Shown: positions 3,906-38,660 of the stretch, piece after piece
How the letters are laid out: each line of letters begins with the position of its first letter
Numbering within the stretch: position 1 is the first letter of the stretch
NCBI GenBank assembly: GCA_950106755.1
Contig: OX467082.1
Location: 16,306,001-16,370,000, forward strand
Reading direction: 5' to 3'
DNA from: Climacium dendroides
Lineage: Eukaryota > Streptophyta > Bryopsida > Hypnales > Climaciaceae
DNA: 64,000 nucleotides
Notes under the pieces: generated by a model
The model's input: the letters and a program-made list of their open reading frames with translations, nothing else
What the model was told of the DNA's origin: nothing
The model's database searches: none
Translations under genes and position numbers: made by a program

Positions 3906-5391
3906 ATACTCCTAGAAGCTTTTTTGACGCACATGTACACTTTAGATAATGTAGCCATTTTTTTTTGAAAATCAAGGCACAATTTGTGCTATGTAGTTCT
4001 TGTAATCAATTGTTTGTGCTGTGCTATAAGTGTTGTAGAAATAAGCGAGGACGGTAGCTAGAGTTTACCTCGTGGTTAAGGCATTGCCTGAGTACTCTTT
4101 GTGAATAAGGTTTATGATATTATTGTTTTAAGTTACTTCATGTGATGGACTATATTGTAATAGAGCGTTTCAATAGATTCAACCGTAATTGGACTTGTCG
4201 CAATGATTTGTGCTTGCTTTGCACATAGAAGATGTGAAGATTTGAGTAGATTGAAACGTCTCAATAAATCAAGTTGACTCTAGTTTGGAGTTTTGTTAGA
4301 AAGAAGGTTGTTGGGTTTGTATTGGTCCTTTCAATATCCTCTGATGATAAATTATTGTATAGTCAAGAGTGTCAATAGTAGTAGAAGAACTACAACTATT
4401 CTAACTGTAGACCATTCTAACATTCATTCCACCTATAAAAAACCTTTTTGAGAGTGGGAACGTGCTCTACCCTACATCTTGAAGTTGCATTTATGATTTC
4501 AAGTCTTTGTCTTTCCATGAATGCTTCACTAAACAACAACACAAGTTGAAGGAAACATTCACAAACAATACTGCTACTACATATGAATTAAACACCGAGT
4601 ACGTCTAACTTCACTTGAATCTTGCAAAAATTTGAAACAAAAATTGCAACAAAGCATTGTACAATCAAAACCATGAACATGAAACACCAATATTCTAAAG
4701 TGTGTTCATAATCTGAAGGAGGCCTTGGAAAATTGTAAAGCTTATTATGCCCTATATTCCACAACCAAGCTTCAAATTTGAGTTACAAGTACACAATCTC
4801 AATGAGATCTTATAATCTAATAATCCAAAGAACAAAAGTAAGCCATAACTTCTCCCATCATTATAACCTCTATTACAACATTCAATTTTCTAAGATCTAC
4901 ATTTGCCACCCTTTTATCACCTAAGCTTTTAGCATTTTCATTGAGATTAATTAAATTACACTAGCCTATGATAACAAATGCAGGATCGTTCATATATTCC
5001 ATTTTTTAATTCCCTTCTCAATGGCCTGAGACAAAAAAAATTCCAATTCTGTTTTCTACAACTTTGTTCCTAAGCTAAAAGTAAATAGATAAAAAAAAAC
5101 ATGAAAAAACATTCAAATTATTATTATGCTAGAAATAAGATTAGAATAAAATAATTTTATTCTATTCTTCAATAACTTAGCTATACATCAAAAAAATATA
5201 ACACTTTGCTATTTGCACAGCTCAACAAACTATTCTCCACTAGCAAGCTTTGAATTTAAGAGACTAAGTACCCAACCTCAATGCAGAAAACAAAGAAAAT
5301 TCACAAACAAATAATTCAGATGTTTCCTAACAACCACAAAAATTCAACCACCACAATCACAAACAATAGCAACAATATTGCACTTATTTTG

Positions 5392-5668
5392 TCATTGGAG
5401 CTTCAGAGTGCTTTTTGAAGAAGACAAGCCAAAGAAAGGAAAGCAATGAAGGGCAACGATGAGGAAGACAAGTGCCTTGGAGATGGCTGGGTTGAGAACC
5501 GGGCAAGGGTGGGCCTTTGGCCTCAAGACACGCAAAAGAAATTAGAGCTTTCAATTTTGGAGTAGGACAAAGGGCAAGCAAGATGTAGGGCCTAATGTTT
5601 TCAAAAAAACGTCGAGGACTTAGTGCCAAGGAGAGCCTGGTATGAGTCACAAGGGTGGGCAACTTAGT
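5392..5668 (-). repeat. Right arm of the long inverted repeat
   Basis: Reverse complement of the left arm at 3657-3905. A 92-codon minus-strand frame covers the arm but reflects only its low stop density; the left arm does not conserve that frame, so it is not a gene. Confidence 0.65.
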
Positions 5669-14402: not shown

Positions 14403-15605
14403 TAATGGTAGCATTTATGATATTACAGAGGGACTTATGATTTTAGTAGTATGATTTTTGAAAACTTGCCTTTGGAGTCTAGTTTTAGCATCAAAAGTCT
14501 GATCTCAAAAGTGATTGATTATGATTTTTTAGTTCAAGATTTTGTACAAAGGTGTCTATTGCAATCTCGACTTTCCTTAGTACTGAGGGCCTTTAGAAGA
14601 AAAATGAGGCCATGAAAGGGCCGTTTTAGGGCTATTCTCATCATTGGAAACAAAACAAAACAAAAATTTAAATTTAAATTTTTAAAAAAACTATTTTTGG
14701 AAAAAACTATTTTTAAAAAAGACTCTATTTGTTGTAACTTGATGATGTGGCAGTTTCCTCGCCACATCAGCAGTCTGCGTGGCAAATGATGTGGCATTGG
14801 GACAAAGTTTCCAATGAATATAACAAGGCCATTTGCAACCCTTTGTTGGGTCGAATTCTTTTCTAATGACCTTGGATTTATATACAATGAAATCAATTAA
14901 AAAATTCAACTACAAAAATCATCTTCAATGATCTTTGTAGTTAGATCTACTATTGCTATGTCTTATATTCCCTCTATTCCACAATATCAGTTCCTTTGGG
15001 GGATTTCATTTGCCCAAATTATTTGTCCTTTTTACTTCACTTGAATTTAGGATTGGAAATGATTTTTTTGTTCTCACTGTAACTTATTAATTGAAGCACA
15101 AGAAGTCTAGTTTAGTATCCACTCTACAAATTAAAAAATTCTAAGAACTGAAATTTTCAAAGCAACTTGAAGCTAACTAGGTCAAAGACCAAAAGACATA
15201 AATTTTCTCATTCAATCTATTGAATTCAAGGCCATTCTTGTGTAGATCTAAACACATGAAGAGGGCAAAGAAGTTGCACAAGAAGTCTTCCTTCTCTTTA
15301 TATAATCAATCCTTGTTTATACATAGCAAATTGTATCTATTACAACCTACTTTTTGATCTTTCTTTGATTACAATTAAAAGCCAAATCCACTTGCTTTGC
15401 ATTTGAGAAGTTGCTTTGCATTTGAGAAGACACTTTGCATCTGTAGAACAATCCAAGCAGTTGTATATGTATTTGCATAAGTATATTTGTATGTGACGGA
15501 GAATGCTGGTATGCGAGCGTAGAGCACAGAGCGTAGAATATAGAGCGTAGAGCATGGATTTCTAAATTTTTAAAAAGAAATTTTGGTATAACATATGATG
15601 AAGTA
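14403..15605. other. AT-rich intergenic DNA, no gene seen
   Basis: Contains short local duplications: CTATTTTTGGAAAAAA-like copies at 14688-14722, TTGCATTTGAGAAG twice at 15395-15430, and GAGCGTAGAGCA-like copies at 15514-15556. The minus-strand frames at 14534-14909 do not resemble any protein. Confidence 0.45.
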
Positions 15606-15609
15606 GTTA

Positions 15610-16030
15610 AAAAGTGGATGAAAGAGTAGACAAAAAAGTGGACGAGGGTTTAGGGTGGATGAAAAAGTGGATGAAAAAGTGGAAAAAGATGATGAACAAT
15701 GTCAGAAGTTGGATGAAAATTAGGAAAGTGGATGAAAAAGTAGATGAAAAATGGATTACGCTGGTACTAGTGTGTATAGTGGATTACGGTTTAGAGTGAG
15801 CTTCTACATTTAAAGTGTAGGAAAAAATTAGAAGAACTTGAATAAAAGTTGGATTAAAGCTAGTAAAAATGGATGAAGGATGAGTTGAAAACTGTTAAAT
15901 ATTTAGGATAAAATAAGATGGAGTTCATAGAAGAAATAGTTGAAGGGTAGGATGGAAAAAGGTGATGAAAGGAATGGATGGAAGAAGTAGAAGGGAACAA
16001 AGGATGAAAAAAATGGATGATACAAGTATA
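15610..16030. repeat. Degenerate GTGGATGAAAAA minisatellite
   Basis: Units of 10-14 bp based on GTGGATGAAAAA are packed from about 15612 to 15755 and continue in a looser form (GGATGAAGGATGAG, GGAATGGATGGAAGAAG) to about 16015. The 61-codon frame across it only reads the repeat as VDEKVDEK-like protein and is not a gene. Confidence 0.75.
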
Positions 16031-16106
16031 AGAAAGACTTATTAAAAAAATATATTAGATGAAATGGAGTATAAAGGATGTATTGTAGAGAAATAATCTC
16101 ATTCAA

Positions 16107-16886
16107 CCTCTAATGATGCAAGAGAGATTGAAGGTTCAGGTTTTGTGGGAATAACTTCCCCTATGACCGTGGAAGTGCAGTGGGTTCGACCACCTTGGCA
16201 TTAGGGATTAGGTAAAACATTTGAGATTGAATTTTACGGACTACAACATATACGTAGACTCTTACAGAATATAACAACGGGTCACGAGTGCTTGGAACAA
16301 GTTTAGAGTATGTAGTTTTGGTCACAAAATTTAGGGCATGATAACAGAAGAAGGTATGTTGAAGAGTTGTGTACTATGCAATTCAATACTATGGCATTGA
16401 GCAATTGTGGAAACCCCCGCAGAAAACGGAATTCAAGTTAATATTGAAACTATATTCTTCTGTCAATTTCAACCTTGTGGTAATCTTAATTAATTAGCCA
16501 CTAAGTTAGTAGCATAAAAACATGCCATTTTGTTCAGTTTGCAAACGAATGTTAATGTCATATCAAGCAATATATGGATTGGGAATTACTAGCAACATAA
16601 ACCCATAGTAATTAATTATCAAACATGAAAATTGTGGAGTGGAACTTTAGTTTAGGCACAAGTGAAAAAGACGATTCAGTAATCGCAGGAGCAGACATGG
16701 TCTCCCAATATACAGCAAGTGACTTGCCCAAGCATAAAGGAAAGTATACTGTGTGTAAGTGGCTTCCAACTTCACTTGTAAGAAGCTGTAGGAAGGATTA
16801 ACGACAAACGAAAAATGCACGGAATTGTAAGTTTTATAACCATGTGTTGAAAACACCAAGAACCCTACATGATCAGTTGAGACATA
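16107..16886. other. 3' flank of the methyltransferase-like gene; possible left part of the transposon
   Basis: No gene is seen. A CCTATGACCGTGG word lies at 16163. If the divergent gene pair to the right is one mobile element, its left end should lie in or near this stretch, but no terminal repeat pairing with 28850-30000 was recognised by eye. Confidence 0.4.
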
Positions 16887-19800
16887 CTATGCAGAAATCG
16901 AACTGCCCTCACTGTCTGATGCCTGTAAATCTGATTGTATTGCAAATTCATCTATAAAGTTAAGAGCACGTGGGTCAACTAGGTGGGCCCTAGCACGTGG
17001 TTTAGGATTCAGGGCAACAAATTCGTGAGCCACTGCATCAGCATACACGGGAAGAGTAAATGGCTTCGGTGGACTAGGAAAGAACTGAGGATGAGAAAAG
17101 AAAGGGACATTGGCTGCAGTTGTCACGCTGTAGGCTTGCCTGAAAAACCAAGTTATCCACATGTAAGTCGGACGGTTAGAAACTGATGTATTTCATCATG
17201 CGAAGAGGAAAACAGTCACATGATGACTTACTTACGGAATCTAGTAGTCTTCACAATAGCTTGGATGGGGACTTCGTCTTCATCCATATCGACTGGTACA
17301 TTAGCCGGTTTAGGTGGGTTAGGGCTGGGACCGACGACCGTGCGCATCATTGGAGCAATAAGTGCATCAAAAATAGCCTTATCCTCCTCGAATGCAAGAA
17401 TATGTCGCAGCGTGGCACGGCAAGCTTCGATGGTTGCACCTGAAGACATGAAATAAGTCCAAGGAAGTGGACAAAGGAAAAACCACCAAGTGCTTTAATT
17501 CATGATCATGACAGTGACAAGTTTATACCAAAGTACCTGTAGCGGCTGTGCAATCGACCACAACGTCCCCTGGTTTGCTGCATGCTTCCATGAGCATCTG
17601 CATGAATTCCCGAGATTTCTCTCGAGGTCCTCTCCATGGTATATCTCCATTCATGGTGACGTCATTCTTGTTGCAGAAATTCTGCAGAATGTCATCCTTA
17701 CCCACATTAATACCCACAGCATCGTGGGATTCCACGTATTGAAAGGGGTAGTCATCCTCGGACTTTGGTCCGTTCTCTTTTACAACGAGAGATATGGAGA
17801 ACCGCATAGTCTGCAACAACCAAGAAGTGAGGATTAAACACTATTTTAGGAAATCATTAAAGCACACATAGAAGACGTGGGGAAATACATTACCGTCTTA
17901 GTGTTGTCTGCTGGAGACGTTAGATGAAGGCGGTTCATGCCGAACCATGTCCGTAGTATCTTGAATTTGTATCCTTGGCAACAACCAAGGAGTTGGCTTC
18001 TGTGGGCACGAGAGAGGGCGGGATATATTATGAGAAGACCTCCATAGTCATGGAGGTATGCTTCGGCAAAGTCAAAGATTGGCACTAACCAATCATCTGC
18101 AAATACGTTTCACTTTGGTATAGGTGCAGGAGGAGTCGAGAGTGTGGGAATATGAAGGCCTTCAGGAACATCCACGATGACCAAGTCCACTGTAGCCTCA
18201 CGCTTCAAGACTCCATTGAAGAAGCGTTGTTTGTCACTCGAATGCTGCAGGAAAACATGAGGGATAAGTAGAAACACAATATAGGCACATAGAACTTCAA
18301 AAGGGAGTTGATGAAATTGCAGTAGTATGTGAATGAAAAAAGAATTTATAAATGATGGTCTTGCTTGAAACGTACCATTGAAAGGAACGCATTCACGTCA
18401 TCAAATGCTTTCTTCTGACTTGGTAAAGCGGACAACGACAGGTTCAATATGCACTCGTCTACATCATGAACAGGGTAGTGAGAAGACGGAGTGAGCCCGT
18501 AGACCAAGTGCTCTTGAGTAAGCAAAAAGCCTGATGACCCTTTTTTCACCTTAGCTACACTTGTAGCTGGTTCTGGGTTTGCGGTTTCGGCCTTCCTCTT
18601 GGTCCCCTTCTTTTTACCCTTCTCTTGGGCCTTCTCAGATTGGGTGGCCTGTCGCTTCTTTCTGATGTCGTCGGACTTCCTTTGTGCTTCTTCAAGCTTC
18701 TCTAGCTTCTTCCTATCAGAGACCTCCCGCCTTTGGATGCATCTTGCTCGCATCTCTGGATGAAGATGAGCAAACTCATCGAACTCAGCATCAACAGTAG
18801 CGGCATCCTTCAAGGTCTGGAATAGAGCCTCCTCCTCTGGCGGAGTAGTCCCAAAGATGCATTCTATATACCAAGGACACGCTTGCAGATGTGGACTTGT
18901 CCACTTTGTCAACTGCATGGGAGAAAATATGTAGTCCGGAGAAGACCGATCTAACCAAGTAGTCAAAAACGGTGGTAAATCTGCCTTCGCAATTGTCTTC
19001 TTGTTGTATAGCTCAAACTTGAAATACCTGCATCTAATGCAGGATTAGTTAGCTACCTTTATAAGAAGAAGTGATTGTACAATAAACAAGGCCAAAGGAC
19101 AGTGCATTGGACCCTCCAAATATGATTACAGCATGGTTGTCCAGAAGAGCCGCAATGCCAGAAGAACTCCTACACAAGGTTAGACACCTGTAAATCACAC
19201 GCTTCACAACCAGCGCCGACCCTCTGAAATCCTTGAAGCTGTCCGACTTCTTGAAGGGGTCAGCACCTTTGAAAATACCGGTGAAAGCAATATTCCAAAG
19301 CTTCATCCTCCAACTCTCAATGTACTCAAGCAGTGTCATTGGTTCGCTTGGAACGCTCATATTGATTGAAATATTGTTAGCCCAAACGATTGATTCAAAC
19401 ATGTCATTGGCTGACTCTTCAATCTAAAGAAGTAAATGTAAACACATTGAGGCCAAGTTGTGCAACACAGAATGTGAAATAGTAATGCATTAAATACAAT
19501 AATGAAACCATGAGATATAACCCTTACCCTAGCATACCAGCACGCCCTAGCAAGAAATTGAGTCAACCTCTCCTCATTCACAAGACAAGGTGGAAATCGG
19601 CGAGCCTCACGGGAGGGACCAGAAGCATTCATCCACTTGAGCCACTTGACTTTTAATTCCAGAGACACGTTGGCTGTTGCAATCAACTGTAACTTTTCTA
19701 GAGTCAACTCGGGAACAGCAAAACGGCTCCAATGTCGCTCTATCTGTATCAAGAAAATGAAAAGGCATCGTCAGTGAAGAAGAGACAAATGGATGAAGAG

Positions 19801-21528
19801 CAAAAAGCTGAACCAATGGTTTCGTGAAAATACCTCTTTCAACCAGTCAAGTCCCAATGCCGGATTTGCAACGGCTACAATCTTCGAGAGCTTCTTGTAT
19901 AGCTTCTCCGTAGAATCCTTAATTGATGCCCTCATAGCTAGGGCAACACCCTCTCTTGTAACCTCATCTTTAGGCGTATCCTCATGATACTTTCGGACTG
20001 CTGCATCAGTAGTTGTGGCTATCTCTTACTGAACAAACATAGGGGAAGTCACATAAGTTTTCAATAGAACAAATGATACTAACATGGAGTGCTTCATGAA
20101 ATTTCAATATGAGTTACTGTTACTGATCACATCCATACCTTAAAAATAAACGATGTGAAGACATCCAAGGGCATAGAGTACCACGACTTTCGTGTATTCT
20201 GTTGACATTTTGCCTTCTCCTCAAGACTCAGCAATTCATGAAATTTCTCAAGCTCAAGTAATCCATACTTCTGAATGCGGTAGAGTGTATGAACCAGGTT
20301 GGTTTTGACATGCGAGTTCTCGGTATGCCTGCAGTAAATAATAATTTAGGATGAACCTGAGAAGTAACTCCAGGAAATAGAGCATTGTTCAAGAAACGTA
20401 TTCTGATAGGTGATGGTAAACGATGACAATGAGGTTGGTGTAAACTCACTTGTTAATATCGTGCATTGCTTGCATTGCAACTCCAATTTGATGCCTTGTG
20501 TCTAGGACTATTGAGTCCACCAAATGCTTGAGGACAGTATGCTCAAGCTTCTCGTTGAATTCATCATTCACTGCATTCCATGTAGGTCCCCATTCTTTCT
20601 TCTCAGCATCGGTAAAGACTGCCATCTCACCCGCCTCATTTGATACTGAGACATAGAAGACTCTTGCGCCCTCCTCATATCCTCGACTAAATTGGTTCTC
20701 CAACAACGTCAAATCGCACGAGAGTGTAGGCCGTACCATGGGCATTGGAACTAGACGACATAAAGGTATCTTCAATCTTGATTGGTCACTAGATGTCAAT
20801 CTCAAGCTATGAATGATGGACACAATGTCCATCGTCTGCGACTTCCGAATTTCGTCTTCCATGTAGTGCGGTTGAACCCCAGGAATTGAAATCTCCGAGG
20901 CTTCACCGTCGTCATCCTCCCCGACACCCCTAGGTGCAGGAGCCCTAGCAGTCATAGACAATGCTCTCGGTGGGGATTTCTGAGATGCAGGCTCTTGTGT
21001 ATTGAAAAAGACAACGGAGTTGCAATTGTCATATGAATTTCACATACAGATACATTGAGAAATATATTGGAATGTTCATTTGAAAAGGACATCATGATTA
21101 TCAATCTGAATGATTTAGAATGGAATATTATAGAGAGATCAATTTATGAAGTTAACATCATCAAACACATGTCCACAAACCACACTCTCTAGTGAAAATA
21201 ATGTATCTTCCAAATCAATATTGGATGATATCCTCTGGGGTAGTAAGCCTAGATGACACATCATCAGCCAATACAAGTTCCTAGTCCCCGAATCCAACGG
21301 ACGTGCAACATGACTCTGAAGAATCCGACAACCCCAAACTCTGCACGTCATCTACTCCCTCATTGAGTTCACGAATCAGATTTTGAAGATCGTATGGTAC
21401 CCTTGGCTGCTTCTCTCGGAGATGAATGTTGGCATCTATATCTGGGACTTGAATCTCCATGGCCGCAAGAGTAGGATCTTGAACATTCTGAACTTCAACA
21501 ACGTTCTCATGATATTCAACCTGGAGAT
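16887..21528 (-). pseudogene. ParB-like plus beta-class N4/N6 DNA-methyltransferase-like protein, spliced, with at least one in-frame stop
   Basis: Exons joined by GT-AG sites in a consistent frame (minus strand): about 21285-21528, about 20993-20450, 20328-20139, 20028-19834, 19743-19528, 19423-19188, 19027-18376, 18244-17894, 17810-17537, 17439-17232 and 17139-16887. The 5' end is uncertain. Near the N-terminus, IPLCRLVPMPMVRP and, further on, VLDTRHQIGVAMQAMHD recall ParB-type domains. Exon 19027-18376 adds a lysine-rich coiled stretch (KKGTKRKAE). The C-terminus has the beta-class methyltransferase order: a motif IV region VDLVIVDVPEG, then KPGDVVVDCTAATG, then GATIEACRATLRHILAFEED. The catalytic (D/N/S)PP(Y/F) is DVPE, so activity is doubtful. 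A TGA at 18110-18112 interrupts the motif IV exon. A TAA at 20026-20028 follows one junction but would be skipped if an AG 6 nt downstream were used. It lies divergent to the transposase at 25125 and was probably carried on the same element. Confidence 0.65.
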
Positions 21529-21740
21529 GGAAATAATTAGAATACTTATATAAGATGAACAAACAATATTCACAACAAATCGATTAAGAAACTAGGATTC
21601 CAGAACTTTCGGTGAAGGGAGACAAATTATAACGGGCCAACAGCCCATGGGAGCCGAGTCAGCATAATTGAGCAATCAGGTCCCTAGCAGGGGCAAGAGT
21701 TGTCCGTGACTAAAAACTCATGCTTGGCCCAAACCTTGTT
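21529..21740. promoter_or_regulatory. Probable 5' region of the methyltransferase-like gene
   Basis: The exon at about 21528 begins at a good acceptor (CCATCTCCAG on the minus strand), so a further 5' exon or a leader probably lies here, next to the tandem array. No start codon could be fixed. Confidence 0.3.
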
Positions 21741-23400
21741 GGTGGAGTCTCGGTCCCGAGAGAGCGATCTGCGGTGCAATACCATGCACAATTCGGTGTA
21801 CTGTTTTATGCAAGCCTAAAACTCGACAGTGCAACCCCTAATCTGTGCAAGCCAAATTCTTGAAATTCCCAACTCGGTACAAACGAAAACAAGATGCTAG
21901 AGGAGTGATGAAAGATTTTGTTTCCATTAATCATGCATGGACCCGAGCGGTCAGATTTTATCTCGGTCCCAAGAGAGTGTTTCTGAATGAGGAGACGTGC
22001 ATGATTTCGGTGAACCCACGGAGTGTACAGGTAGGCAGGTTACAGGTATTTATGCTGAGATATCTATGCTTGGCCTGAACCTTGTAGGTGCTATCTCGGT
22101 CCCGAGAGAGAGATCTGGGGTAGGACGCCGTGTACGATTTTTTGTACTGTAATATGCAAGCCTATACCTCGGCAGGTCAAACCTCGGCAGGGCAAGTAAT
22201 CATGCATGGCACCGACCTACCAGGTGTTCTCTCGGTCCCGAGAGAGTGTCTTTGAATGACGATGCATGCATGATTTCGAACAGGATCCCATTGATGTCCT
22301 AAATGTAAAGTCTCGGGATCCCAGATTTGATGAGGGATACAAACCCTATGTTCTGAGCGAGGGGTGGATGGAGAACTCTTGACTCGGTGAACCCTCAGAG
22401 ACTACACGAAATCATACTACAGATAAGTCTTCTCTAAGTAAGAAAGCTGAGAAATCTATGCCTGGCGCAAACCCTATCGGTGCCATGTCAGTCCCGAGAG
22501 AGGGATTCGGGGAAAGATGCCGAGCACGATTTGTTGAACTGAATTATGCAAGCCTATACCTCGGCAGGGCAACTAATCATGGTAGATCTCGGCAGGGCAC
22601 CTTATCATGCATGGCACCAAGCTTCCAGCATGGACCCTAAATTCACGAATGTACTGACTCGGTAGAAACGAAAGAAACATGCTGGAGGAGTCATTAATCA
22701 TGCATGGCCCCGAGCTGTCAGGGGTTCTCTCGGTCCCGAGAGAGTTCTTTTGAATGAGGAGGCATGCATGATTTCGAACTAGATCCCGTTGATGCCCTAA
22801 ACGTAAAGTCTCGGGCTCCCAGATTTGATCAGGGACCCTAAACCCTATTTTCTGATTCAACGCACGCAAGGGGCGGAAGGATAACACTTGATTCGGTGAA
22901 CCCTGTCGGGCTACACGGAATCATGCTACCGGTAAGCCTTCTAGGATCCTGCAGGCTGGTATATGTGTGCTTGGCCGGAACCCTGTCGGTGCCGTCTCGG
23001 TCCCGAGAGAGGGATCCGGGGTGCGATGCCATGCACGATTTGATGCACTATATTACGCAAGCCTAAACCTCGGCAGGGCATACCTCGGTAGAGAATCTAA
23101 ATTCACGAATGTACTGACTCGGTAGAAACGAAAGAAACATTCTGGAGGAGTCATTAATCATGCATGGCCCCGAGTTGTCAGGGGTTCTCTCGGTCCCAAG
23201 AGAGTTCTTTTGAATGAGGAGGCATGCATGATTTCGAACTAGATCCCGCTGATGCCCTAAACGTAAAGTCTCGGGCTCCCAGATTTGATCAGGGACCCTA
23301 AACGCTATTTTTTGATTCAACGCAAGCGAGGGGCGGAAGGAGAGCACTTGATTCGGTGAACGCTGTCGGTCTACACGGAAACATGTTACAGGTAAACAAG
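21741..23400. repeat. Tandem array of composite repeats with TCTCGGTCCCGAGAGA palindromes
   Basis: Eight occurrences of TCTCGGTCCCGAGAGA or a one- or two-base variant (near 21748, 21961, 22094, 22230, 22488, 22728, 22995, 23188) alternate between two contexts. Type A continues into GGATCCGGGGTGCGATGCC-like and ATGCAAGCCTA-like sequence. Type B is preceded by CATGCATGGCCCCGAG-like sequence and followed by GAATGAGGAGGCATGCATGA. Together they make four A-B units of about 340-510 bp. The last two B units (22639-22935 and 23099-23395, offset 460) are about 95 percent identical, so amplification was fairly recent. The array is GC-richer than the flanks and non-coding, and it sits between two divergent genes, where it would hold their promoters or protein-binding sites. 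Confidence 0.85.
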
Positions 23401-25124
23401 CTATGAAATACATGCAGGACCCCCGTCCCTCGAGTGACACTGAAGCATTCTGGTGGTACCGTAGTTATGAAAGAGGTTTAGGGTTCTAGGCATGACAAAC
23501 CGTGACAATCCGGAATTGTTATGAGGTTAGTATAGTCCGACATGCAAGTATGTTGTGCTTCAGCGTACTTGGGCTACGGCAGCGGCGCTTTCTTGCGCAA
23601 GTGGCAGCACAATATTGTCTCCAATTTGATTTCTTCGCGGACGCAGAACTTGATCCATCACTGAAGACCTTGGAGAAACACATAATTGCCTCCACACGTC
23701 AGGAATCCATGAATACCTCATAACACTCTATATCGGAATAAGTTAGTGAAGTGGACACAGAAAGTGCTGGATGACCTACCAGATTGTCCTTCGCGGACGG
23801 CGAGGTGGGAATCACAACCACAGCGTTAGGTGTGTAGACAGGGCAAGTCAACGACCCGAGGACGAAATAGCAGCGGAGTTGATTCCCAGCAAGGTATGGT
23901 ATCGCGCTCCCTTTCAAGATTAGAGTTGACGGCAGAATGCTGTATTTTCTGGGATGTACGGTCCAGACTATGTAGGGAAGTACGGTTCCGAACTACGGCC
24001 GAAACAACGGTTCGGTTGGAACTACGTTTGGGTCTACAGTTGCATCAAAGGGTATTAGCCTACATCTTTAGCGATCCATATTCCTACCTCACCTACCTCT
24101 CTTTACACTTCGCTTCGCATTAAATGGATTATCAATTTGCAGATTGTATGTTATGAATTGAAATCCTAATTTATAATGTCCCTATATTGTGGATCATTTC
24201 TTGAATAAGATCGAACAGTTTTCGTCGACTGAGGGTTTTCATTATACTTTGAGCTTCACAATAGTGAGCAATTAAATTTCATTACAAGATATATCAATTG
24301 ATACCTATTCTAAATATGATGTTTTTAGGTATTTAGTCTCTATAAAAATTCAGTCACTTTAAAAATTCTGTAGTACTTGTTCTCGGGCCAAGCTTTTCTA
24401 TAGAGTAGGGAGGGTAGTATATATTTGCATATTTCATGCACTCATTATTGGTAGTATGTGTCATTGTTTGATTACAGCACATATTATAGTTATTTGCTCA
24501 CGATCCTGGGAGGGGTACAATCTTGGAATCGAAGTGAAGTAACCTCGTATAAGTCTAATATAAGATTTATCTGCATATCTTAAAAATCCTCCATAATTAC
24601 GATATCATTTACAATATCCCTTATTATTACTTGATGGATGACTTAGATTATGGTCACTGTGTTCGTTTACGTATAACGGTCAAATTCTTTTTGGAAATGT
24701 TAATGATTCTGAAGAATCTTGAGATTCGATTTCACTGTGCTAAGTGGATTGTGTTTCTTTACTACAGAAGCCTTTCATATATATCACTATACTAAGGGAA
24801 TACTTACACAGACCTGTCTGACATGTATTTACGGTGTACCCAATACATTCAATGGCCTATTTAATCTTTGTTCTCCTGACAATTTGTGTGCTGCCGTTTT
24901 CATACTATATTGTACTTCTTGAGTTACTACTAGTATTCAGTATTCACAAGTTGTATTTATTGTATTTCATTCTAGGCCTGATTTTGAATGTGTTATTCAG
25001 AGCATTTCAGTACTTCTGCGCTAATGTTCTTTATGAAATATAGTCTTCGGTTATAGTGTTATTTCACCCTTGGAATTTACAACCTCAAGAGTTTCAGGAA
25101 GGATGCATTGCTTTGACTGATAGC
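23401..25124 (+). promoter_or_regulatory. Upstream region of the transposase gene
   Basis: No credible coding exon is seen; frames at 23830-24123, 24719-24922 and 24834-25043 lack any family resemblance. From about 24130 the DNA is AT-rich like a plant promoter or leader intron. The words ACGGTTC and ACGGTCC recur at 23955-24030. The transposase frame becomes coding-like at about 25090-25125. Confidence 0.35.
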
Positions 25125-28100
25125 ATGACAGGATCTTCAATGGCAATTGTGAGGGCACATGGAGAGTGTGTTCCGATCTCATTTCCTGTGGGCGAGTTGG
25201 GATATGCTGTTGTTAGTTCGTCTCGATTGAGTGCCCGTTTCCAACTTGCAGAGAACTCATTAGATATTGACGAAGAAGTATTTGATAGTATAAGTGGTGA
25301 CTTGACGCATACTATAGGGCAAGAGCCCTCTGTGTGTGGCCTTGTTAGGCAATGGCATTTGCGTGAAGGTAGGTATTTAACATATGGATTACCGCAGTCC
25401 TGTGCAGGAGCCTCCAATGCAGAGGGATCTGCTAGAGTTTCTAGGACTAGTACTTTCGAGAATACTGTGAAAATTGAGTCTGGTGTGGAGGTGATTACCA
25501 TTGGAAGTGACGACTCTGATGGTTCATCTCCACCCTGCAAACTTCTGAAACCGACATCTTTGTCTGCAGTTGGTAGAGCATACTCATCCTTCTCGCCTTC
25601 TACAGATACAGTGACACCATCATCATCATCATGTGCGTCTTCAATTGTTTCATGTTTGCAGAAGCTGTGCCACACAAAAGGTTCCAGGAACCCGTTCAAG
25701 AGGGTCAATTGGAACTCAATTAGAATATGTAGTATTCAATTTGTTCCACCTTCATTCAATGGCGATGTGATTTTTGAGTTACCACCCATCAGAGATGTTT
25801 CGGGAACTCACAGTCAGGCTAAGCTTCTCACTGGAATGGAGAAACGCTATGATGGTCATGTTTGGACAAATCTTCATACGACAAATATAAAAAATGTAGA
25901 CGGCCTGACATTTCGGTTGGCGTCTTGTGTGGGCCACCTACAATGTGTCAACCCGAGTTGTGACTATCTAACTCGAAAGCACAGTGTAGCTCTCATCAAC
26001 GAGACTGAATGGGATGGTTGTTCTCCTGTTCCATTTGAGGTTCGTGATATTCCTCCAGTTGGTTCCACTATCACATGCAAAATTTGTTCAATTGCTCCAT
26101 CGTGTATTGGTAGTTGTCCTGCGAAAATCTATTATGTAGTTGGGTCACAGGACATGACTCGGGCTTGTGTTCATTTCGGTATTCACAACCACCCTGTGAA
26201 AGATAGAGATTGTCGGGACTCCAAGGAGAGAACTCGGTCTTTGATATCAGACCAAGTTGAGCGGAACCCGTCTGGAACAAATTCCGCTATCGTCCTAGAG
26301 GCTAGCAAGGAGTTCCTTGGAGAGATGCTACTTTGACCCGAAGGAACTACACCTACCGTATTTGGTCTCCAAGAATTGATGCCGGTTCTGGAGAAATGCA
26401 AATTCATAAGTTCCCCAAGTATTCGCAATGAAGTCAGTACGTTCAAGTACTTCCGGCGCTTTGGAGTCATGGACAGCATCACAAAGCTTCGTGGTTGTAG
26501 CAATTGGGCTTTTGTGCAAGAGAACAGATTTCCTGGTCAGGGATCCGACTCTGATAAAGTATTTGTGTTCAAAATGTCCGAGGTTGGCCTTGGAAGTGGC
26601 GTAGACTTGGTATCGCGTATGCAACCTGGTGGTGACCTTGAGGACGCATGGATCATGTTTGATCATGTTAGGCGAGTGAAGCTCTGGACTACAATTGCGT
26701 GTCATGTTTATGACACGACATATTGCCGTGTCATGACTATTGCAGTTAGTGATATGCAGTCAGAAGATGTAGTTGCCCAATGCGACTTCTGGAAAAACCT
26801 AAACGTTGTGATGGGTAGACATGGACATACCTTGCCATATTTTAAGGGCTTCATGGCTGATTCGGCACAAGCAAACTGGAATGCGGTGCGCATAGTTTAT
26901 GGAAGTGGTGACCCAACCGAGCCCATGCCCAATCAAGAACGTACATGTTTATTTCATTGGACTCAGTCAATGGAGAAACACACGAAAGCAGACATTCGCA
27001 GTGACCTTCAAGACCAGCATCGGAAGCTATGCAAATAATATAAGGATGCAAATTCCTTAGCAGAGGCAGAGACTAGGTTTCATGCAATTCGAACGTGGTG
27101 GCATTCATCCGGAGCCACAACCGGAGAGGGGCTTCGTCGTTTGGAGCTGTGGTTAGCGTTTTGGCACTTCCAGTATAGGCAATGGAGAGCATTCATGGAC
27201 ACTGTAAGATTCTTGATCACCGTATCCGTCGTTTCTTTGTTTTTCAGGATATGGTTCTTGTTGCTGTCTTATCTTCTATCATTGCTAATTATTTATTTGT
27301 TTTATGTTTTTTATCTTCAGTTTCTCGAGTACTTCATATAACAACCCTAATCGTAGACCTTAAACCCAAGAAATATTGTAGTAGCTTTAATCCATGCTCT
27401 ATGGAACAGGGACTCACTGAAGATGAACTTGGACTCATTCCTACTTGCAACCTCGCGGAGACCGTCCATAACAAATGGTTGCAACAATCTGGAAAACGTG
27501 GCACTGATTTGTACGTCGCCACCGTAGATGACTATGTTTGAGCGTTCATGCAAATGGTTAGATATTACCAGTTCCTAAAAGGTGAGAAGCCGGGAACTGG
27601 TCCAGGAAAAGAAGAACTATTGCTTCGTGTAGCACAAAGATATGCCCAATGTACCGGTAATCCGAAAGGATTGAACGATGCCATGGCATCTGTACCAGGT
27701 GTCAATGAGTATTGCACTAGGAAGCCCCATTTGGAAGGCGAGGAAGTTTTCGGATCTGAGAAGCGAATGCCAAATCTTCTTCCTGGTTCTAAATATGACT
27801 CGCATCGTCCCGACAAAGTGAATTTCTCCCAACCCCGGGTTGGAACGAGGGCCACCCCTGCACCCACACTAGTCATTTCCTTGGATCGCATTTCTGAAGA
27901 ACCATGGCCTGTGACGCATGAAGATCATCCGGATTTGTTGGAGTCACCTAAGACCAGGTCAATTCCTGCAACTGAGGTGGCCTCCCAAGTGAGGACCGTC
28001 CAAGAAACAGTTTGTGATGAGTCTCAATGGCATATTGCTCGCTTGCCTAAGACGTCTTCAAAGGCATGTTTTGCATTGCAGGCCATTACGCGAAAAAAGT

Positions 28101-28846
28101 GTATAGCTAAAATAGTGCAAGGCAATAGGGGAACAGCTGCACCTACATACACTGACAGCATGGACAACTACAAGAAAAATAGGATTGAGAGAATGCAATT
28201 TTTTTTCTGCAATGATGATATATCGCGGTACGTCAAAGGTTCTCGGCGGAAATGGGTTCTATCAAAACCGGAAGTACCAGATATTTGGCCGGTGCAAGTT
28301 GGAACCAATCTTACACCTAAAGAGATACTAGATCTTCAAAATGCAGGGTTCCGTCTTCCGCAGCATCTTGCCATTTCCCCTCGTAGGCTATTTGGAAATC
28401 ATGATTTGCCCCCTGATGATTTGGGACTTCAAGTTCCAGAGTCACCCGTTGAACACCCCAGCACACGGTCAGAAAAGAAGATTTGGAGGAATCCAAAAGC
28501 ACCTACAACAAAGCAAGCAAACAATTGCGCCTCCGCACTCACAATGAAAGCAGTGGTTCGTGAAGTTACTATGGTACCGCATCCAGGCTTCGGATGCATC
28601 ATTGCATTGGACTCAGGTACACCGCCTGCCATTCAACATTACATGATCACTGTAAGTGCATTTCCTGAATGCACTTGCCCTTATTTCAAGGACATGTCAA
28701 CAAAGGCTCTAGGAAAAAGAGGGCAATGGGCTAATTGCAAGCACTTGTATTTTTTGTTCACTGGAGTTTGCCAATTGGATGCAGAAGTAGATCTTTTTAT
28801 TCATGCTCCAAGCTTTAGCTTTAACGAAGTGAAACGCATACTTTAG
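25125..28846 (+). pseudogene. MULE-like transposase with SWIM zinc finger, interrupted by stops
   Basis: The first in-frame ATG is at 25125, though the open frame extends to 25056. Parts in order: an acidic serine-rich stretch (ITIGSDDSDGSS); a Cys/His domain with CVNPSCDY, CKICS and HFGIHNHPV, of the type seen at the N-terminus of MULE transposases; a DDE-like core with LWTTIACHVYDTTYCRVMTI and GFMADSAQANWNAVRIVYG followed by C-x-x-HW; NLAETVHNKWLQQSGK; and near the C-terminus a SWIM finger, CTCPYF...WANCKH (C-x-C-xn-C-x-H). In-frame stops lie at 26334-26336 (TGA), 27036-27038 (TAA) and 27539-27541 (TGA); each fits a C-to-T or G-to-A change in an otherwise continuous protein. An intron with donor ACT|GTAAG at 27204 is likely, but its acceptor does not restore frame cleanly (candidates 27248 and 27321), so an indel is possible. 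The final frame runs 27548-28846. It cannot encode a full-length protein as it stands. Confidence 0.75.
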
Positions 28847-30395
28847 AGTGGTATCTTGAAGCTGAAATCCAATTAGTACACAGTTATCCTTCTAAACGGT
28901 TGGCCTTAGCATATTGCAGTGTACCTTTGGATGATGTTCTCCAAACTTGTTTCACGTAAGAATTGTAGTGAGAGTAAAAGGGCCACTACTGAATTTCAAT
29001 TGTCATTCGTCCATTGCACCTTGCACTATCATGCGTGATTGCCCATCCCACACTCTCTAGTATGATTCGTATATATCTCTAGATATAAAATATTCATAGA
29101 GGATTGTTTAGATTGGTCTTGATAATTGCGATTAAAAAAAATGGCCTTCCCTTGTCCCAATCCACTGAATATGACCTTGACTTCATTGACTTTTTTCAAT
29201 GAATATGGTAGGACAACGACAGAGTTACTTAGAGGTGGTCACCTTATGCATTTGCAAGTTTGCAACATTTACCTGAACTTCCTATGGTTGTAAACCCATT
29301 TTTTATTAGCACTATCTCATGCTAGCATTGGTAGCCTAAACCTAAACCCTTGAAATACAGATGAGTAGCAATTATTGATGAATATAGTACTTGCTAACAT
29401 AATTGAAATGCATTATTATTGATAGGAAGTTTTTGAACATGCTAATGCCTTTCATATGATAAATTGGTAAAGTGGTTGGGCATGGATGAACTTAATTAAT
29501 CATTTTAACCCTATCGCATGGAAATGTTAGCCTAATCCCAAGCATTCTAACTATAGTTGTTCAGTAGTTTAAGTTAAATTGTTCACCTAACCTTATGTTT
29601 TTCAATACATTAAACAGATGTGCATCCAACAATAAAAAGTTTATATGAACCCTAAACCCAATGCTCTAAACCCTAAATATAGTCCTCTATAAAAAGTTAA
29701 CAGATGTACAATAAACAAGACACGAAGGCAATAATAAATACCCTAAACATTGAACCCTCACCCTAGAAGTATGTCTGTCCTTCACCTTTGAAGGGTCATT
29801 TCACGGTTTGAGGTCCCCAATTATATTTAGATCAAGAAAACACATTTATATGGGTACCCCTAAACCCTAAAACCGCGGTGAAAGGTTATGTTATATATCT
29901 TGATACCACGGTTATAGGTTCACACCCAAATAATCTTTTTGCTATAGACTTAGGATTTCCTGTCTTGGATCCACGGTGATAGGTCCATTTCCATGGTTAT
30001 GGGGGCATGAATATAAAGTTATCATGTTTGACTTTGTAAAACTTCAAAGCAACACTAGTCTAAACATGTACAAGATATACTTCATTCAAAAGTTCATTCA
30101 ATTTGGGATCCATAACCATAAACACCTTTTTTCTTACATGTCCAATGGATTTTTCCATGAAATGTAGACAAAGTCATCTATTTAGTTGATTTGAAAATAT
30201 TCCCAATCAATTGCCCGCCTAAACATTTATAACTTTGAGGCGTCTATCTTCTTGGGCCACTTTGGAAAAAAGCCCTAAATCCTAACTATCCACTGAAACC
30301 TTCCTATTCCTCCATCTCCTCTCCCCCCTTCCGTCTAGGCAATTGAAAGGCCAATCCTTAAAGAATCCTTTCTCCTTTCTCCCTCTCATGCCGTT
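28847..30395. other. Transposase 3' flank and intergenic DNA
   Basis: No gene is seen. Scattered CCCTAAA words at 29640-29870 look telomere-like but are not a tandem array. Words of the type CCACGGTNATAGG occur near 29900 and 29970, inverse to those near 16163 and 8400-8600. If the divergent gene pair is one element, its right end should be somewhere here. Confidence 0.4.
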
Positions 30396-30399
30396 GATC

Positions 30400-30605
30400 T
30401 AGATACGGGTAGGGATACTTTACAGGGCCAGATACGATATAATATAGACACGGTCCGGATGCGAGATACAAGATATAGTTCAAATACAATACAAATCCAA
30501 TATGGTACGAAGATGAGATATTGAATATAGTTCAAATGCAATATAAATACGGTATGGTATAGATACAAAATACGAGGTACGAGGTACGGATATGGATATA
30601 TCCTG
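30400..30605. repeat. Degenerate GATACG/TACGGTA short tandem repeat
   Basis: Words such as GATACGATA, GATACGGGTA, TACGAGGTACGAGGTACGG and ATATAGTTCAAATGCAATA recur with heavy variation over about 200 bp. Non-coding. Confidence 0.65.
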
Positions 30606-30738
30606 TATCAAATGTTACCCCCAGCCCCACCTGAAAAATACAGAAGGGCAGGAGGGGGGGAAAAAAGCTAAATTTAATATAATAAAAGTTTGAGCTCATT
30701 GGTGGGAGGTACTAAAATTCAATTTCATTTTTTTTTTG

Positions 30739-30771
30739 GAGTGGATAGTGAGACAGTCTCACTATCCACTC
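30739..30771. repeat. Perfect 33-bp palindrome
   Basis: Two 16-nt arms, GAGTGGATAGTGAGAC and its exact complement, flank a single A, preceded by a T-rich run. It could extrude as a cruciform, be a remnant of a foldback insertion or, less likely, act as a transcription terminator. No gene adjoins it. Confidence 0.9.
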
Positions 30772-33700
30772 GAAAGACAAGCCACTAAGCTTTGGCACAT
30801 GAACCAATTAATTGATATAGCATTAAAACACCAATCCCCTACACAAATTGGTTAGTCATAATCCCACCGTAGGAGGTGTCCAATGTCATTGTTGAAGTTA
30901 CGCACCAACAATAATAAAACTGGTGTAAATGTGACAGAGCGAATTGCAATCGTAATGTAGATATTATTTGGAATAGATCTTTTGATCAAATTCTACATAA
31001 ATCTTGTTGTTAATTGTATGGTTATTAATTGTGACCATGTGTAGAAACTGGTGTTGGTCTGCAGGAAGTTGATATATTTTAAATATCCTTAATGAATCGC
31101 TCAGTTATAGGAATGCAAACAAAGCTCTTGGAGTTGGTGAACTGAATTTTATTTTTTGAAACAAGTGTGTTGAAGAACGCACTACAAGGGTTTTTGTCAG
31201 GAAAAGGGGCTTCTTTCACGTGAGGTAAATCACCTGTCACCGCCATGTTTTGAACTTGCTACTATGCCATTTAGTTTAGGTACCTCTCCACCATCATCTG
31301 GTAGTTTAGAATCGAAAACATTTCCTTAATAGTTTTGTAGATGTGGGCTAGTGCTATTCTCTCTACATTCTAGTCCAATATATAATTATCTCCCTCAACT
31401 TACTAGGCGGTGGTAAGATGGACAATGAAATATTCTATTAAGTCTTGGAGATGAGCATCAAATACACTAGATCTTGAATAAAAAATCACATGACATTAAA
31501 AATTCATTTAAAAAGTTGTACAGTAGATTTTGTGAAGCCATAAATTGATTGGGTTTATGCATGTTAGGTCCTTTAAACTCATATTTTTTTGGTAACCAAC
31601 TTTTTAAATTTGATATGTAAAAAGAGAATAAAAAAACTTCAAGTCACTTTTGCAGTTTTAACACCTTCATGATCAAACACTATAATCTTTCAATCCATGA
31701 GTGATATTGTTGTGTTTTCTTTTCCCAAGTGATCTCTAACATGTCTAATTTGAATTTGTACAATTACATTTCAAAAACAATTGATAAAGCTCATCAAAAT
31801 GTTGTCATTTTGTTCAATTTAGAATAGATTCCTAAAAGCTCAATAAAGGCCTTGGGCATTTAGAGGTTAAGGTGAACTCACCTGAATGTTGAATTAATAG
31901 GATAGTTTTCTACTATAGAAGTTTAAGTAAGGATCATCTTGCTTTCACCATTGGTATTTGTGAATTTTAATTCCATCTTTAGTTAGAGATATTAATAATT
32001 TAGATTTTCCTTCTATCTTGTACCTACTTCTACTTAACAATCGTTTTAAGAATGAAAATTAAGTTTAATTTTTTTTTTAAGATTCTCAACTCAATTTTAC
32101 ACAAAAAATATTTAAAGCACAAAGCTTTGTAGTGCAAAAAATTTAAGTTTAGAAGGTTCAAAGTCAAATAATTTAGTCCCGCAATGTACCAAAAAACTTG
32201 TTTTCTCCAATTTAAACAAAAATATCTCGCAATTTGTGGGGTCTAAATTTTTGAAATTTAATCCACACATTTTTATGTTGGTTAAATTTAAGATCCTAAA
32301 ATTAGATATCCAAAAATAATAATTTTCAAAATTATTTACCCTTTGCAATGAAAATGACAGTTTTGAGTGTTTTTTGGGGGAAAAAAGGCCTTGGTCTTTA
32401 AGAAGTTAAGACATTATCACTAAAACAATTTCTATTTCATTGACATGTCCCATTTTAGTGCCTTGTCTTTCATAAGCTACACTACTACATTTTGAGCACA
32501 CATGCCAACACATTGGTTTAACCCTAATTTTGTGTCTCCTTGATTTTGACTTACATTGGAACTTAAACATAAAAATTGTTTTTGTATGTGATTCTTTGGA
32601 GCCCACACGTCTTGTTATTTTTGGGGAAGGCATTATTTAGAGCACAAATGAGAATTCACTTTTAGAACAATCCCATTCAACTAGTATCAATAGATTTTAT
32701 ATACAATAAGACATTAAATTAGTTCTTAGAAACTTGTATTCATTGCTTGTAACTCTATGACAATTTTGGGAAATAACAATAATTAATTACGTCTTGAATT
32801 CTTGTTTCAAAATTTGCACAAAGATTATATATAGAACTATTATATTTAAAAGTGACAATTATCAAGCGTTAACCTATGGAGATGCAAGGCATTGTATTGA
32901 TATATTGAGCCTCTACAAAAAAATCTAATATTATTTTCACAGTGTAAATATCATGTATATGTAGCCTATTTAAGGTCTTAAGTTTTGATTGAATTAACAA
33001 AAAAACATCATTTAAAGAATTTATTTAAAATTCATTATATTATGGATGTAACTTTATTTTGATGCCATGCATTGTCATTTTCAGCTCAAAGTCAACAAAC
33101 AAATGTATTACCTTGTGATAGAGAGATTTCATCCTACATTGATGGAGATGTGAATTATACACAATTAGAGGTGGTGCAAGCCATACATATGCATAAAAGA
33201 ACTTTTCTATTGTTCATAAAAACTTCCTATCAAACTCCAATGTTAGTGTTGTCAAAAGTTTAATGAGGATGCTTTTCTGTCCTTCCTAGGATCTTTCTAC
33301 CAAGCTTCAGTTAACCGATGCAATTGTTGTTAAGACTTAGCATCTTATTTATATAGAAAAGGTTGATGTCAACTAGATTGTGTTTATGGACACCTCAATA
33401 TAGGGAATTATATTTAGAGCAACATTGTTCTTTTGACATGAACTTTGGTTCAAAACATGACAATTCTATTTTGGTTTTCTAGTGTACCATTGTATTAATA
33501 AAATATTTTGTATTCTTTCCTATCTAGTTGACTGTTAATTTATTATACAACTTCATTTGAAATATCCTTAGAACTCTTTAAATGATTCCAAACAAAAAAG
33601 TGGTGCTTCAACTAAATACCAATATAATGAATGAAATTTAGAAAAAAAAAACTTTAATGTTAAATGACAATAATATCCTATGGAACTTTTTGAGGGTTTG

Positions 33701-36838: not shown

Positions 36839-38660
36839 CATTCTTGTGATCTACTTAACACAGAATTGAGCCATTGTTTTTTCAAGTTTGCATGATTGGT
36901 ATGTGAGCACCCTGAGCATGCTGCCGCGCACTAGTGCAAAAGGGTGGTTGAAATGACATGTTGAAATGACATTTTTTGAAAAATGACATGTTGAAATGAC
37001 ATTTTTTGAAAAATGTCATTTCAACCATGTTTTGGAGAAATGTCATTTCAACCACCCATGTTGAAATGACATTTTTGACATTTTGGTAGATTTTAGAAGA
37101 AGAATTGATTCCATTATGTATGTTTCAATCAAGAATGAAATTAATGTCATTTCAACCAATAAATTTGGTAGATTTTAGAAGAAAACATTATCCCATAATA
37201 TTTGCCATGGAGAAGACAAGTAGTAGAAATAAATAGTGAGTAGAGTCTAATCTTGAAGGTACATTTCTTCTTCTAAACTAAGAAATATGTGAAGAAATGT
37301 ACTTATGTCCAAAGCAGATAGATTTAGTGGATAAATCTACATTTTTGTAGGTTTGTAAAATCTACATTTTAAAGATTCAAAATCTAAAATCTGCATTTTT
37401 ATAAGATTATAAAATCTAAAATCTATATTTTTTAAGATTCCAAAATCTAAAATCTACATTTTTTAAGATTTCAAAAACTAAAATCTACATTTTTTAAGAT
37501 TTTAAAAACTAAAATCTACATAAGAGTAAGATTTTAAAAAGTAAAATCTTCAATTTGAATAGATTTTGAAATCTAAAACCTCTTTTTAAATATGATTTCA
37601 AAGAGCTAAAATGTACACCATCAGTATGTTTAAATGAGATTTTCAAAATGTCATTTAAACCTACATGTTGATATGACATCAAAAAAATGACATTTTAAAT
37701 GACATTTTGATGTCATTTCAACCAACATTGAGAGGTTGAAATGACATCAAAATGTCATTTAAAATGTCATTTCAACCACCCTTTTGCACTAGTGCGCGCA
37801 GGAGTGCAATCGGTGCTTTTTTTGTGTCCAGCAAGTTGCAAGTGACTCCAGCTTTCATTTTGTTATGACTTTTCTTCGTACACAAATACACGTGTTGGTG
37901 GATTGGACATTCTTGTGGAACTCTTGTGATCTGATCAACTCAAAATTGAGCTATTGTTTTTTCAAGTGTGCTTGATTGGTATGTGAGCACCCCGAGCATG
38001 CTATGTTGTAGGAGTGTTCCATCGGGTTTTCTTATGTATCCTGCAAGTTGCAAGCGATTGGGACTTGTAGACAGATTGTCACCATTTTTTTTCATTGTGC
38101 TGATGGATTGGTCATTCTCTGCGGAAATTCTAGTGGCATTCTTGTGATTAGATCAGCACAGATTTGAGTTATTGTTTTTTCAAGTGGGCGTGATTGGTAT
38201 GGGAGTACTGTGCAAGAGCATGCTGTGTTGTAGGAGTGTTCAATCGGTGCTTTTTCTATGTCGTGCAAGTTGCAAGGGATTGGGACTTGTTGGCAGATTG
38301 TTAGTTTGTTACCATTTTTTCTCCGTGTTGGTTGATTCGGCATTCTTTGTAGAACTCCTCGTAGTAGTCATGTGCTTTGATCGACACAAATTTGAGCCTT
38401 TGTTTTTCAAGTGCGCGCGGTTGAAATGTGAGCACTATGTGAGCATGCTGCGGCATAGGATTGCTCACCAGCAACAATCGATGATTTTCTGTATTCTAGA
38501 AATCGCAAGGGAACTTTGTTGTTGCTTTGATGTTGTTACCAGTTTCTTTCCCATGTGTTAGTCGACTGAACATTCTCTGTGCACTCCTCTTCGAATGCAT
38601 GTGATTTGATCATCACAAATTCGAGCAATTACTACTTGCGAGTGTTGGGTATCACGAAGC
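36839..38660. repeat. Tandem array of about 210-230-bp units, first unit interrupted
   Basis: Five units are recognisable by the order CATTCTTGTGAT(C/T), then GAGCCATTGTTTTTTCAAG, then GATTGGTATGTGAGCAC, then GAGCATGCTG, then GTTGCAAG. They begin near 36839, 37919, 38140, 38368 and 38598 (the last partial). Removing the 866-bp insertion and one 4-bp copy from unit 1 gives a spacing of 210 bp, like the others. Units differ by roughly 20-30 percent, so the array is old. No conserved reading frame runs through it. Confidence 0.8.
36929..37794. mobile_element. Non-autonomous CACTA-like element with subterminal repeats
   Basis: An 866-bp element with terminal inverted repeats CACTAGTGCAAAAGGGTGGT and its complement. 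Many copies of TTGAAATGACAT, in both orientations, cluster within about 150 bp of each end (36945-37085 and 37660-37780), like the subterminal transposase-binding repeats of CACTA elements. The centre (37330-37620) is made of TAAAATCTACATTTT repeats. No ORF. CGCG is found on both sides (36925-36928 and 37795-37798); a CACTA element should leave 3 bp, so the exact boundary is ambiguous by a base or two. Confidence 0.82.

Follow-up and report, generated by a model that had tools for sequence, protein, structure and literature searches.

Do two long genes that diverge from a shared array of tandem repeats in the moss Climacium dendroides form a single transposon, and what would the second gene do for it? 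The locus lies in a 64,000-nucleotide stretch of contig OX467082.1 (C1:16306001-16370000; the window), where a preliminary description had seen a candidate autonomous Mutator-like element (MULE) with a ParB- and methyltransferase (MTase)-like accessory gene that could mark the element's ends or counter host silencing. We searched the C. dendroides genome (412.6 Mb, 123 contigs), scoring the best 62-150 of about 900-1360 candidates in each list, and compared ten relatives of the window copy, five of them spanned end to end. The multi-copy transposon family is real, and we judge it recently active from its near-identical copies. A marking or anti-silencing role for the accessory gene is one that we, too, infer by analogy. 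We are evenly divided over the fuller reading, in which these large MULE-like DNA transposons form a family of autonomous type, and their accessory protein, ParB-like and MTase-like, would serve self-recognition or anti-silencing in the manner of VANC. Gene models throughout are predictions from sequence and splice sites.

Both spliced genes and the array between them are present as first described (Table 1), and the GC content of the element, 0.42, exceeds that of its nearest flanks (0.27-0.32; 13-15 kb and 31-36 kb). The element extends beyond the interval 16887..28846 originally assigned to it, from a left end at 15498 through homology to relatives until 30920. Its copies fall into two subfamilies. 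Subfamily A is 21.3 kb long, with three spanned copies 99.80-99.86% identical pairwise and the left end reached in three of the eight copies retrieved; subfamily B, to which the window copy belongs, is 16.3 kb long and comprises two complete copies, 97% identical, plus the window. By blastn, the main pieces of the window copy are 90.7-96.1% identical to the complete copy B2, with lower identity inside the array. The copies share common ends: left ends open with GGGGAATGCTGGTATGCGAGCG, and right ends, read inward, with CAACGAAGCTAGTATACGAGCG (B3 differs by one base). Perfect 10-bp target duplications, within the 8-11 bp anticipated, flank four of the five fully spanned copies (both B, two of three A); A1, which has none, is the sole exception. 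The terminal inverted repeats (TIRs) are short and imperfect, with 23/34 terminal bases matched in B, where random 34-mer pairs of B2 match at most 22 in 20000 trials, and a weaker 16/34 in A. Repeats of GAGCGTAGAGC occur at both ends in B and at the right end in A. With 2 mismatches allowed at most, the TIR core has 151 matches in the genome against 0 for a reversed control. Among the 100 of these 151 matches that were listed, a transposase or MTase marker follows inward within 22 kb in 94 and is missing in 6, and the 19 convergent TIR pairs less than 40 kb apart all enclose an MTase marker, 12 of them also a transposase of the 62-copy list introduced below. On C38:16089614-16788109 (~0.7 Mb), B-type copies are clustered in both orientations, six of 15.2 kb and one of 15.5 kb, which suggests local hopping or segmental duplication.

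Pairing was scored around the best 62 of 1363 transposase candidates (one of 63 rows was dropped as a second fragment), at first with one MTase exon as marker (best 150 matches; 147 rows used after three second-fragment rows were dropped). By this marker, the accessory gene lies no more than 20 kb upstream of 59/62 transposases (co-oriented with 35, divergent from 24) and downstream of none. Adding a second exon (best 150 matches; marker ends, here and for the later sets, approximated as start plus 350 or start plus 700) brings the pairs to 61/62, one of them spaced 19 kb; the last transposase has its MTase 22 kb off, inside the same TIR-bounded interval of 31.8 kb. The divergent arrangement thus holds for the window and for 26/62 copies and is not universal, 35/62 being co-oriented. 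For a second clade of transposases (67 copies, found with query P0046), the first markers were rightly placed in 2/67 and elsewhere in 4. With a ParB exon of that clade's own kind, P0119 (best 150 matches), 54/67 carry it upstream, all divergent, against a mean of 2.5 and a maximum of 6 of 67 in 200 random placements. With an intermediate query, P0066, of which 35 out of 150 rows entered the count, three such pairs appeared, two of them spaced 6.2 kb and the third 20 kb. In the protein database, the clade-2-like transposase P0051 and the ParB exon P0066 come from contigs that are both 185737 long, which suggests that the two are co-located in another sample. Two transposase clades are thereby shown to carry the pair, in most of the copies examined. 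Chance adjacency is rejected by the counts of 61/62 and of 54/67, the latter set against the random placements. This explanation, like that of a conserved host gene lying beside a transposon, is hardly credible, as the complete copies A2, A3, B2 and B3, each with target duplications, enclose both genes.

To which superfamily does the transposase belong? In the window and its relatives it reads D..D..CxxH..E with a C-terminal SWIM motif (CxC..CxH), a putative catalytic pattern whose labels we presume to be those of this kind of transposase; the exon with the glutamate was inspected in the window, A1 and P0001. The CxxH and SWIM pattern, the TIRs and the 10-bp target duplication agree with MULE/Mutator elements. 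No Pfam family was matched by the window and A1 transposases, and PF00872 (Transposase_mut) reached at best 0.034, in 2/51 relatives. As there is no significant Pfam MULE/Mutator match, we call the element MULE-like only: the assignment stands on motifs and target-duplication length and finds no backing in Pfam. Sola1 elements have target duplications of 4 bp and KDZ elements of 8 bp; membership in Sola1 was rejected on the 10-bp duplication, and membership in KDZ on the same length and the lack of a KDZ Pfam match. None of the viral contigs carried the transposase.

In the accessory protein, the C-terminal exons match PF01555 (N6_N4_Mtase) just below the cut-off (E 1.5e-5; 25.5 bits against 26.7), and the MTase part of A1 matches phrog_3008 (8.9e-8) and, weakly, DpnA structures (E 0.006). 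The putative motif order is IV-X-I: the X/I half gives the sub-threshold PF01555 match and the weak DpnA match, and the IV half aligns to DpnA in order, with DVPEG opposite DPPY and ATG opposite GSG, in an alignment not significant alone. At the motif-IV position, 18 of 22 aligned family members (A, B and 20 family exons down to 39% identity) have D[VLIM]PE[GD] and four have variants; PP[YFW] occurs in 0/22, so the catalytic form [DNS]PP[YFW] is absent from the set. Motif I could be read in four families, as DCAAATG, DCTAATG, DCIAATG and DCTASTG, each one glycine short; the stretch of a fifth family ended before it. Because motifs IV and I are both non-canonical, catalysis by the MTase-like domain is doubtful, though the motifs are conserved. 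On the protein's other half, the preliminary label of ParB-like suits the family, whose relatives keep a DGNHRR segment that is deleted from the window copy. The longer GNHRRIAW stretch, which we take to be the G-x-x-R-x-x-A box of the ParB/Srx superfamily, is likewise conserved in relatives and lost from the window. As a protein query the ParB exon alone drew 296 matches; the whole spliced accessory model drew none, a result that probably reflects the prediction of relatives as single exons. A tblastn search of phages returned 16 records with weak methylase matches only.

The accessory protein could still be catalytically active, methylating N4 of cytosine or N6 of adenine and so marking the DNA of its own element, a role proposed for the protein of a transposon in the brown alga Ectocarpus (PMC12477816). 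The motif order with PF01555, phrog_3008 and the DpnA similarity would fit such an enzyme, as would the strong constraint on the MTase exons described below and the reported making of N4-methylcytosine (4mC) by DNA methyltransferases in Marchantia sperm (PMC8566409). We nevertheless regard it as unlikely, given D[VLIM]PE[GD] in most members at the motif-IV position, PP[YFW] in none, and the missing glycine of motif I. Judged by these sequences, an ordinary DPPY methylase is less likely than a module that binds DNA or S-adenosylmethionine (SAM) or acts as a block, or one of altered chemistry.

If the protein recognizes its own element, where would it bind? The candidate is the palindrome CTCGGGACCGAG, which in subfamily A lies at element positions 8098, 8205, 8312 and 8715, with a variant at 8956 and two more variants ~1.4 kb 5' of the transposase, and which has five exact sites in B2, eight in B3 and five in the window. 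It stands 5' of the MTase gene in the same relative orientation in A and B, despite the inversion of the gene between them. The pattern CTCGGNNCCGAG has 7 sites in the A-type locus L009 against 0.01 expected, and the window's 5 exact sites compare with 0.00 expected from shuffles. The palindrome's 14-mer CTCTCGGGACCGAG has 74 matches in the genome, against 1 for a reversed-pattern control; without exception they stand 2.7-7.7 kb 5' of an MTase exon, in 72 cases on the strand of that exon, and they belong to 18 MTase rows, 17 B-type and one A-type. The A-type array rests on the copies retrieved rather than on this count. The family thus has an element-specific motif array in non-coding element DNA, as VANC-like systems do.

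In the reading over which we are divided, the ParB-like domain would bind the CTCGGGACCGAG array, and the bound protein, like VANC in VANDAL elements, would keep the region that controls the element's genes out of reach of silencing by host DNA methylation. The beta-class amino-methyltransferase-like domain would more probably serve to bind DNA or SAM or to block, or have an altered chemistry, than work as an ordinary methylase. A bolder variant, to which we assign a low probability, is a partition-like system: the ParB-like protein would load on parS-like CTCGGGACCGAG and spread, the altered methylase domain would read or shield the DNA and so exclude silencing, and palindrome and protein would be exchanged and inverted as one cassette. 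The array might instead serve a transcriptional autoregulator that adjusts the output of the accessory gene itself and of the transposase gene, controlling copy number rather than host silencing. That the array lies immediately 5' of the accessory gene, whichever way the gene points, and that two further sites precede the A-type transposase would suit such a regulator, but this reading leaves the methylase-derived domain unexplained, and we consider it rather improbable.

The history of the two genes differs. Between A1 and B2 the transposase has a synonymous divergence (dS) of 0.34 and a non-synonymous divergence (dN) of 0.054 (omega, their ratio, 0.16; 1160 codons), whereas the MTase exons have a saturated proportion of synonymous differences (pS) of 0.77 and a non-synonymous proportion (pN) of 0.22 over 1065 codons. 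Among five MTase exons reported singly, the three with finite dS have omega 0.05-0.07. Comparison of B2 with the broken window copy gives an omega of 0.36. Between subfamilies A and B, purifying selection on the accessory gene has been strong. The accessory module has diverged much further than the transposase adjoining it and is inverted between the subfamilies, for which the simplest reading is that elements have exchanged the module (or the transposase part). The same divergence bears on a further possibility, that the protein assists transposition, as a mudrB-like factor or by ParB-like bridging of DNA, and is no epigenetic factor. Its retention beside the transposase in 61/62 and 54/67 copies would suit a helper; the lack of tight co-evolution between the two genes, the internal position of the palindromes and the presence at the ends of their own GAGCGTAGAGC repeats would not, and we hold this very unlikely.

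Substitutions give an indirect view of what happens to inserted copies. Among private substitutions, C>T/G>A changes make up 31/43, 30/40, 34/48 and 44/54 in segments of B2 and B3, and 54/101 and 56/103 in the window; CpG sites appear somewhat over-represented. The pattern would fit cytosine methylation of inserted copies, and with it a pressure of silencing on them. Each of the window's three transposase stops is a sense codon in at least one relative, one C-to-T change away, and the third is common to the window and B3.

Several observations weigh against the VANC-like reading. In the protein, no Pfam ParB match was found in 56 relatives, so the ParB assignment rests on the motif; no ParB stands among PDB matches down to E 1, the sole ParB hit being phrog_1033 at E 0.19; and the motif-IV alignment to DpnA has the limit given above. 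The array may be no more than a common kind of promoter repeat; the exact 14-mer is found at only 17 B-like accessory genes when 38 rows have at least 74% identity, so that many B-like copies are without it. As to pairing, 88/147 accessory rows have no transposase of the best-62 list nearby, 18 of them with at least 70% identity, and 13/67 second-clade transposases have no accessory marker, none being otherwise placed. In a third set, 27 transposases picked by eye and absent from the 62-copy list, 0/27 have an accessory marker (MTase exon or P0119) within 20 kb among the matches listed; one of these, C34:18043255, adjoins a family TIR at C34:18047665 and yet has no marker. Finally, the window's own accessory gene is broken.

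Table 1. Features of the transposon copy in the window (positions counted from the first nucleotide of the window)
Feature	Position	Strand	Remarks
Decayed transposon copy, subfamily B	15498..30920	.	blastn against the complete relative B2
Left terminus GGAGAATGCTGGTATGCGAGCGTAGAGC...	15498..15531	+	aligned to the relatives' element starts GGGGAATGCTGG...
ParB/MTase-like accessory gene	16887..20982	-	ten exons aligned to B2; two nonsense codons, 34-residue in-frame deletion
MTase exon with motif X / motif I	17535..17810	-	PWRGPREKS...PGDVVVDCTAATG; PF01555 match
MTase exon	17894..18244	-	DVPEG at motif-IV position instead of DPPY; TGA 18112-18110
Exon with lysine-rich charged linker	18376..19026	-	served as family marker
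ParB-like exon	20449..20982	-	DGNHRR segment deleted here, kept in relatives
Provisional upstream exon	21281..21520	-	good 3' splice site, ends at TAG; splice inference only
Tandem repeat array between both genes	21721..23396	+	
Five exact CTCGGGACCGAG palindromes	21749..23007 (starts 21749, 22095, 22231, 22729, 22996)	-	same orientation as the MTase gene
Transposase-like gene	25125-28846	+	a single intron, inferred; nonsense at three codons (26334, 27036, 27539)
Transposase-like exon 1	25125..27203	+	Asp candidates 26712, 26859; CxxH from 26946; nonsense 26334, 27036
Intron (GT-AG)	27204..27409	+	inferred from reading phase
Transposase-like exon 2	27410..28846	+	candidate catalytic Glu 27458 (CNLAETVHN); nonsense 27539; SWIM 28670-28744

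With its provisional first exon, the accessory gene of the window comprises ~11 exons over 21520-16887 on the minus strand. The small number of nonsense codons reported at the outset is borne out: three in the transposase, and in the accessory gene two (20028-20026 and 18112-18110, in exons aligned to relatives) besides the TAG that ends the provisional exon. An in-frame loss of ~34 residues takes the DGNHRR motif with it. At the right, homology ends ~350 bp before the right end of the relatives. A right end for the window copy was sought and rejected, the last 420 bp of B2 matching the window over 67 bp only (30854-30920); beyond this, the 420 bp yield an inverted match to a TIR-like stretch at the left end and two pieces of 13-18 bp that are at chance level. 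With this part of B2 nearly unmatched, we regard the copy as truncated. The bases after 30920 resemble the left flank in 8/10 positions by eye and were not used. The right arm also holds a palindrome at 30730-30780, with two 25-bp arms that are 88% complementary and 1 nt between them. The nonsense codons, the deletion of the ParB motif and the missing right end make the window copy non-autonomous, so that the autonomy first suggested does not hold for it; in A-type relatives the transposase frame and the accessory exons are open. B2 has one stop in the transposase and one in an accessory exon, and A1, inspected by eye, has no GT donor at the B-homologous place of its second aligned accessory exon.

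Subfamily A (L029/L009) also contains pieces of host genes, from a citrate synthase and from a nucleosome assembly protein, at element coordinates 2920-3198 and 5225-5602 (minus) and 1060-1428 (plus). The citrate synthase fragments match PF00285 (1e-8) and citrate synthases in the PDB (7.1e-22 and 7.6e-11); the nucleosome assembly protein fragment matches PF00956 slightly below cut-off (1.5e-6). Judged from these matches, the 21-kb subfamily, otherwise of autonomous type, has captured host genes. Elsewhere in the window lie an AT-rich tandem repeat array (37333-37617; 31-bp unit, 7-8 copies), a likely host gene for a BTB-domain protein (44925-46172, plus strand; match 2e-5) and a likely host amino-acid transporter (52214-54200, minus strand; PF01490, 6.6e-48 and 2.7e-29). 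An Rfam scan at the gathering threshold gave no match.

How new is such a pairing? MuDR with mudrB is a two-gene Mutator-type element, as here; we know of no relation between mudrB and the present accessory gene. To our knowledge, VANC is also without ParB or MTase parts. The preliminary description knew of no eukaryotic element with this combination, a claim that does not survive the literature: Ectocarpus Sola1-1_Ec32 is a 21.5-kb DNA transposon with a 1104-aa accessory protein of ParB-like and N4C/N6A-MTase domains, and the same paper cites the pairing for green- and red-algal transposons (PMC12477816). Like the window copy, Sola1-1_Ec32 is large and encodes its transposase and its accessory protein on opposite strands; its transposase is of the Sola1 type, whereas ours is MULE-like with 10-bp target duplications. 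By comparison with the algal elements as described, the moss family adds the orientation switch, the palindromic array and the non-canonical catalytic motifs. Accessory matches here run to hundreds in one genome (147 rows and 150 for P0119, best-scoring lists that may overlap). Among VANDAL elements, which are plant MULEs with an accessory gene, VANC binds motif arrays in non-coding element DNA and brings about loss of methylation; these arrays are dense, share one orientation and gain and lose repeats, as here, though the motifs differ from ours (PMC5735166). Fungal DNA transposons carry TET/JBP dioxygenases, again accessory genes of DNA-modification type, in several lineages and proposed to counter silencing, but the enzyme, the hosts and the superfamilies are other than here (PMC12730594). 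The N4CMT of bdelloid rotifers is likewise a bacterial-type amino-MTase in a eukaryote; it has a catalytic SPPY motif, unlike our family, and its carriage by a transposon is undescribed in the parts of PMC8885841 covered. In Marchantia sperm, 4mC is reported to be made by dedicated enzymes (PMC8566409).

In the literature searched (titles and abstract openings of the papers listed), we found the pairing in no land plant. What is new here is the ParB/MTase accessory theme on a MULE-like element of a land plant; with the pairing itself already known in algae, it makes no new category. The near-identical copies and the defined candidate binding site make escape of a transposon from DNA methylation directly testable in this family, which may give a second plant system beside VANC, and the conserved, non-canonical catalytic motifs call into question the view of these accessory proteins as ordinary methylases.

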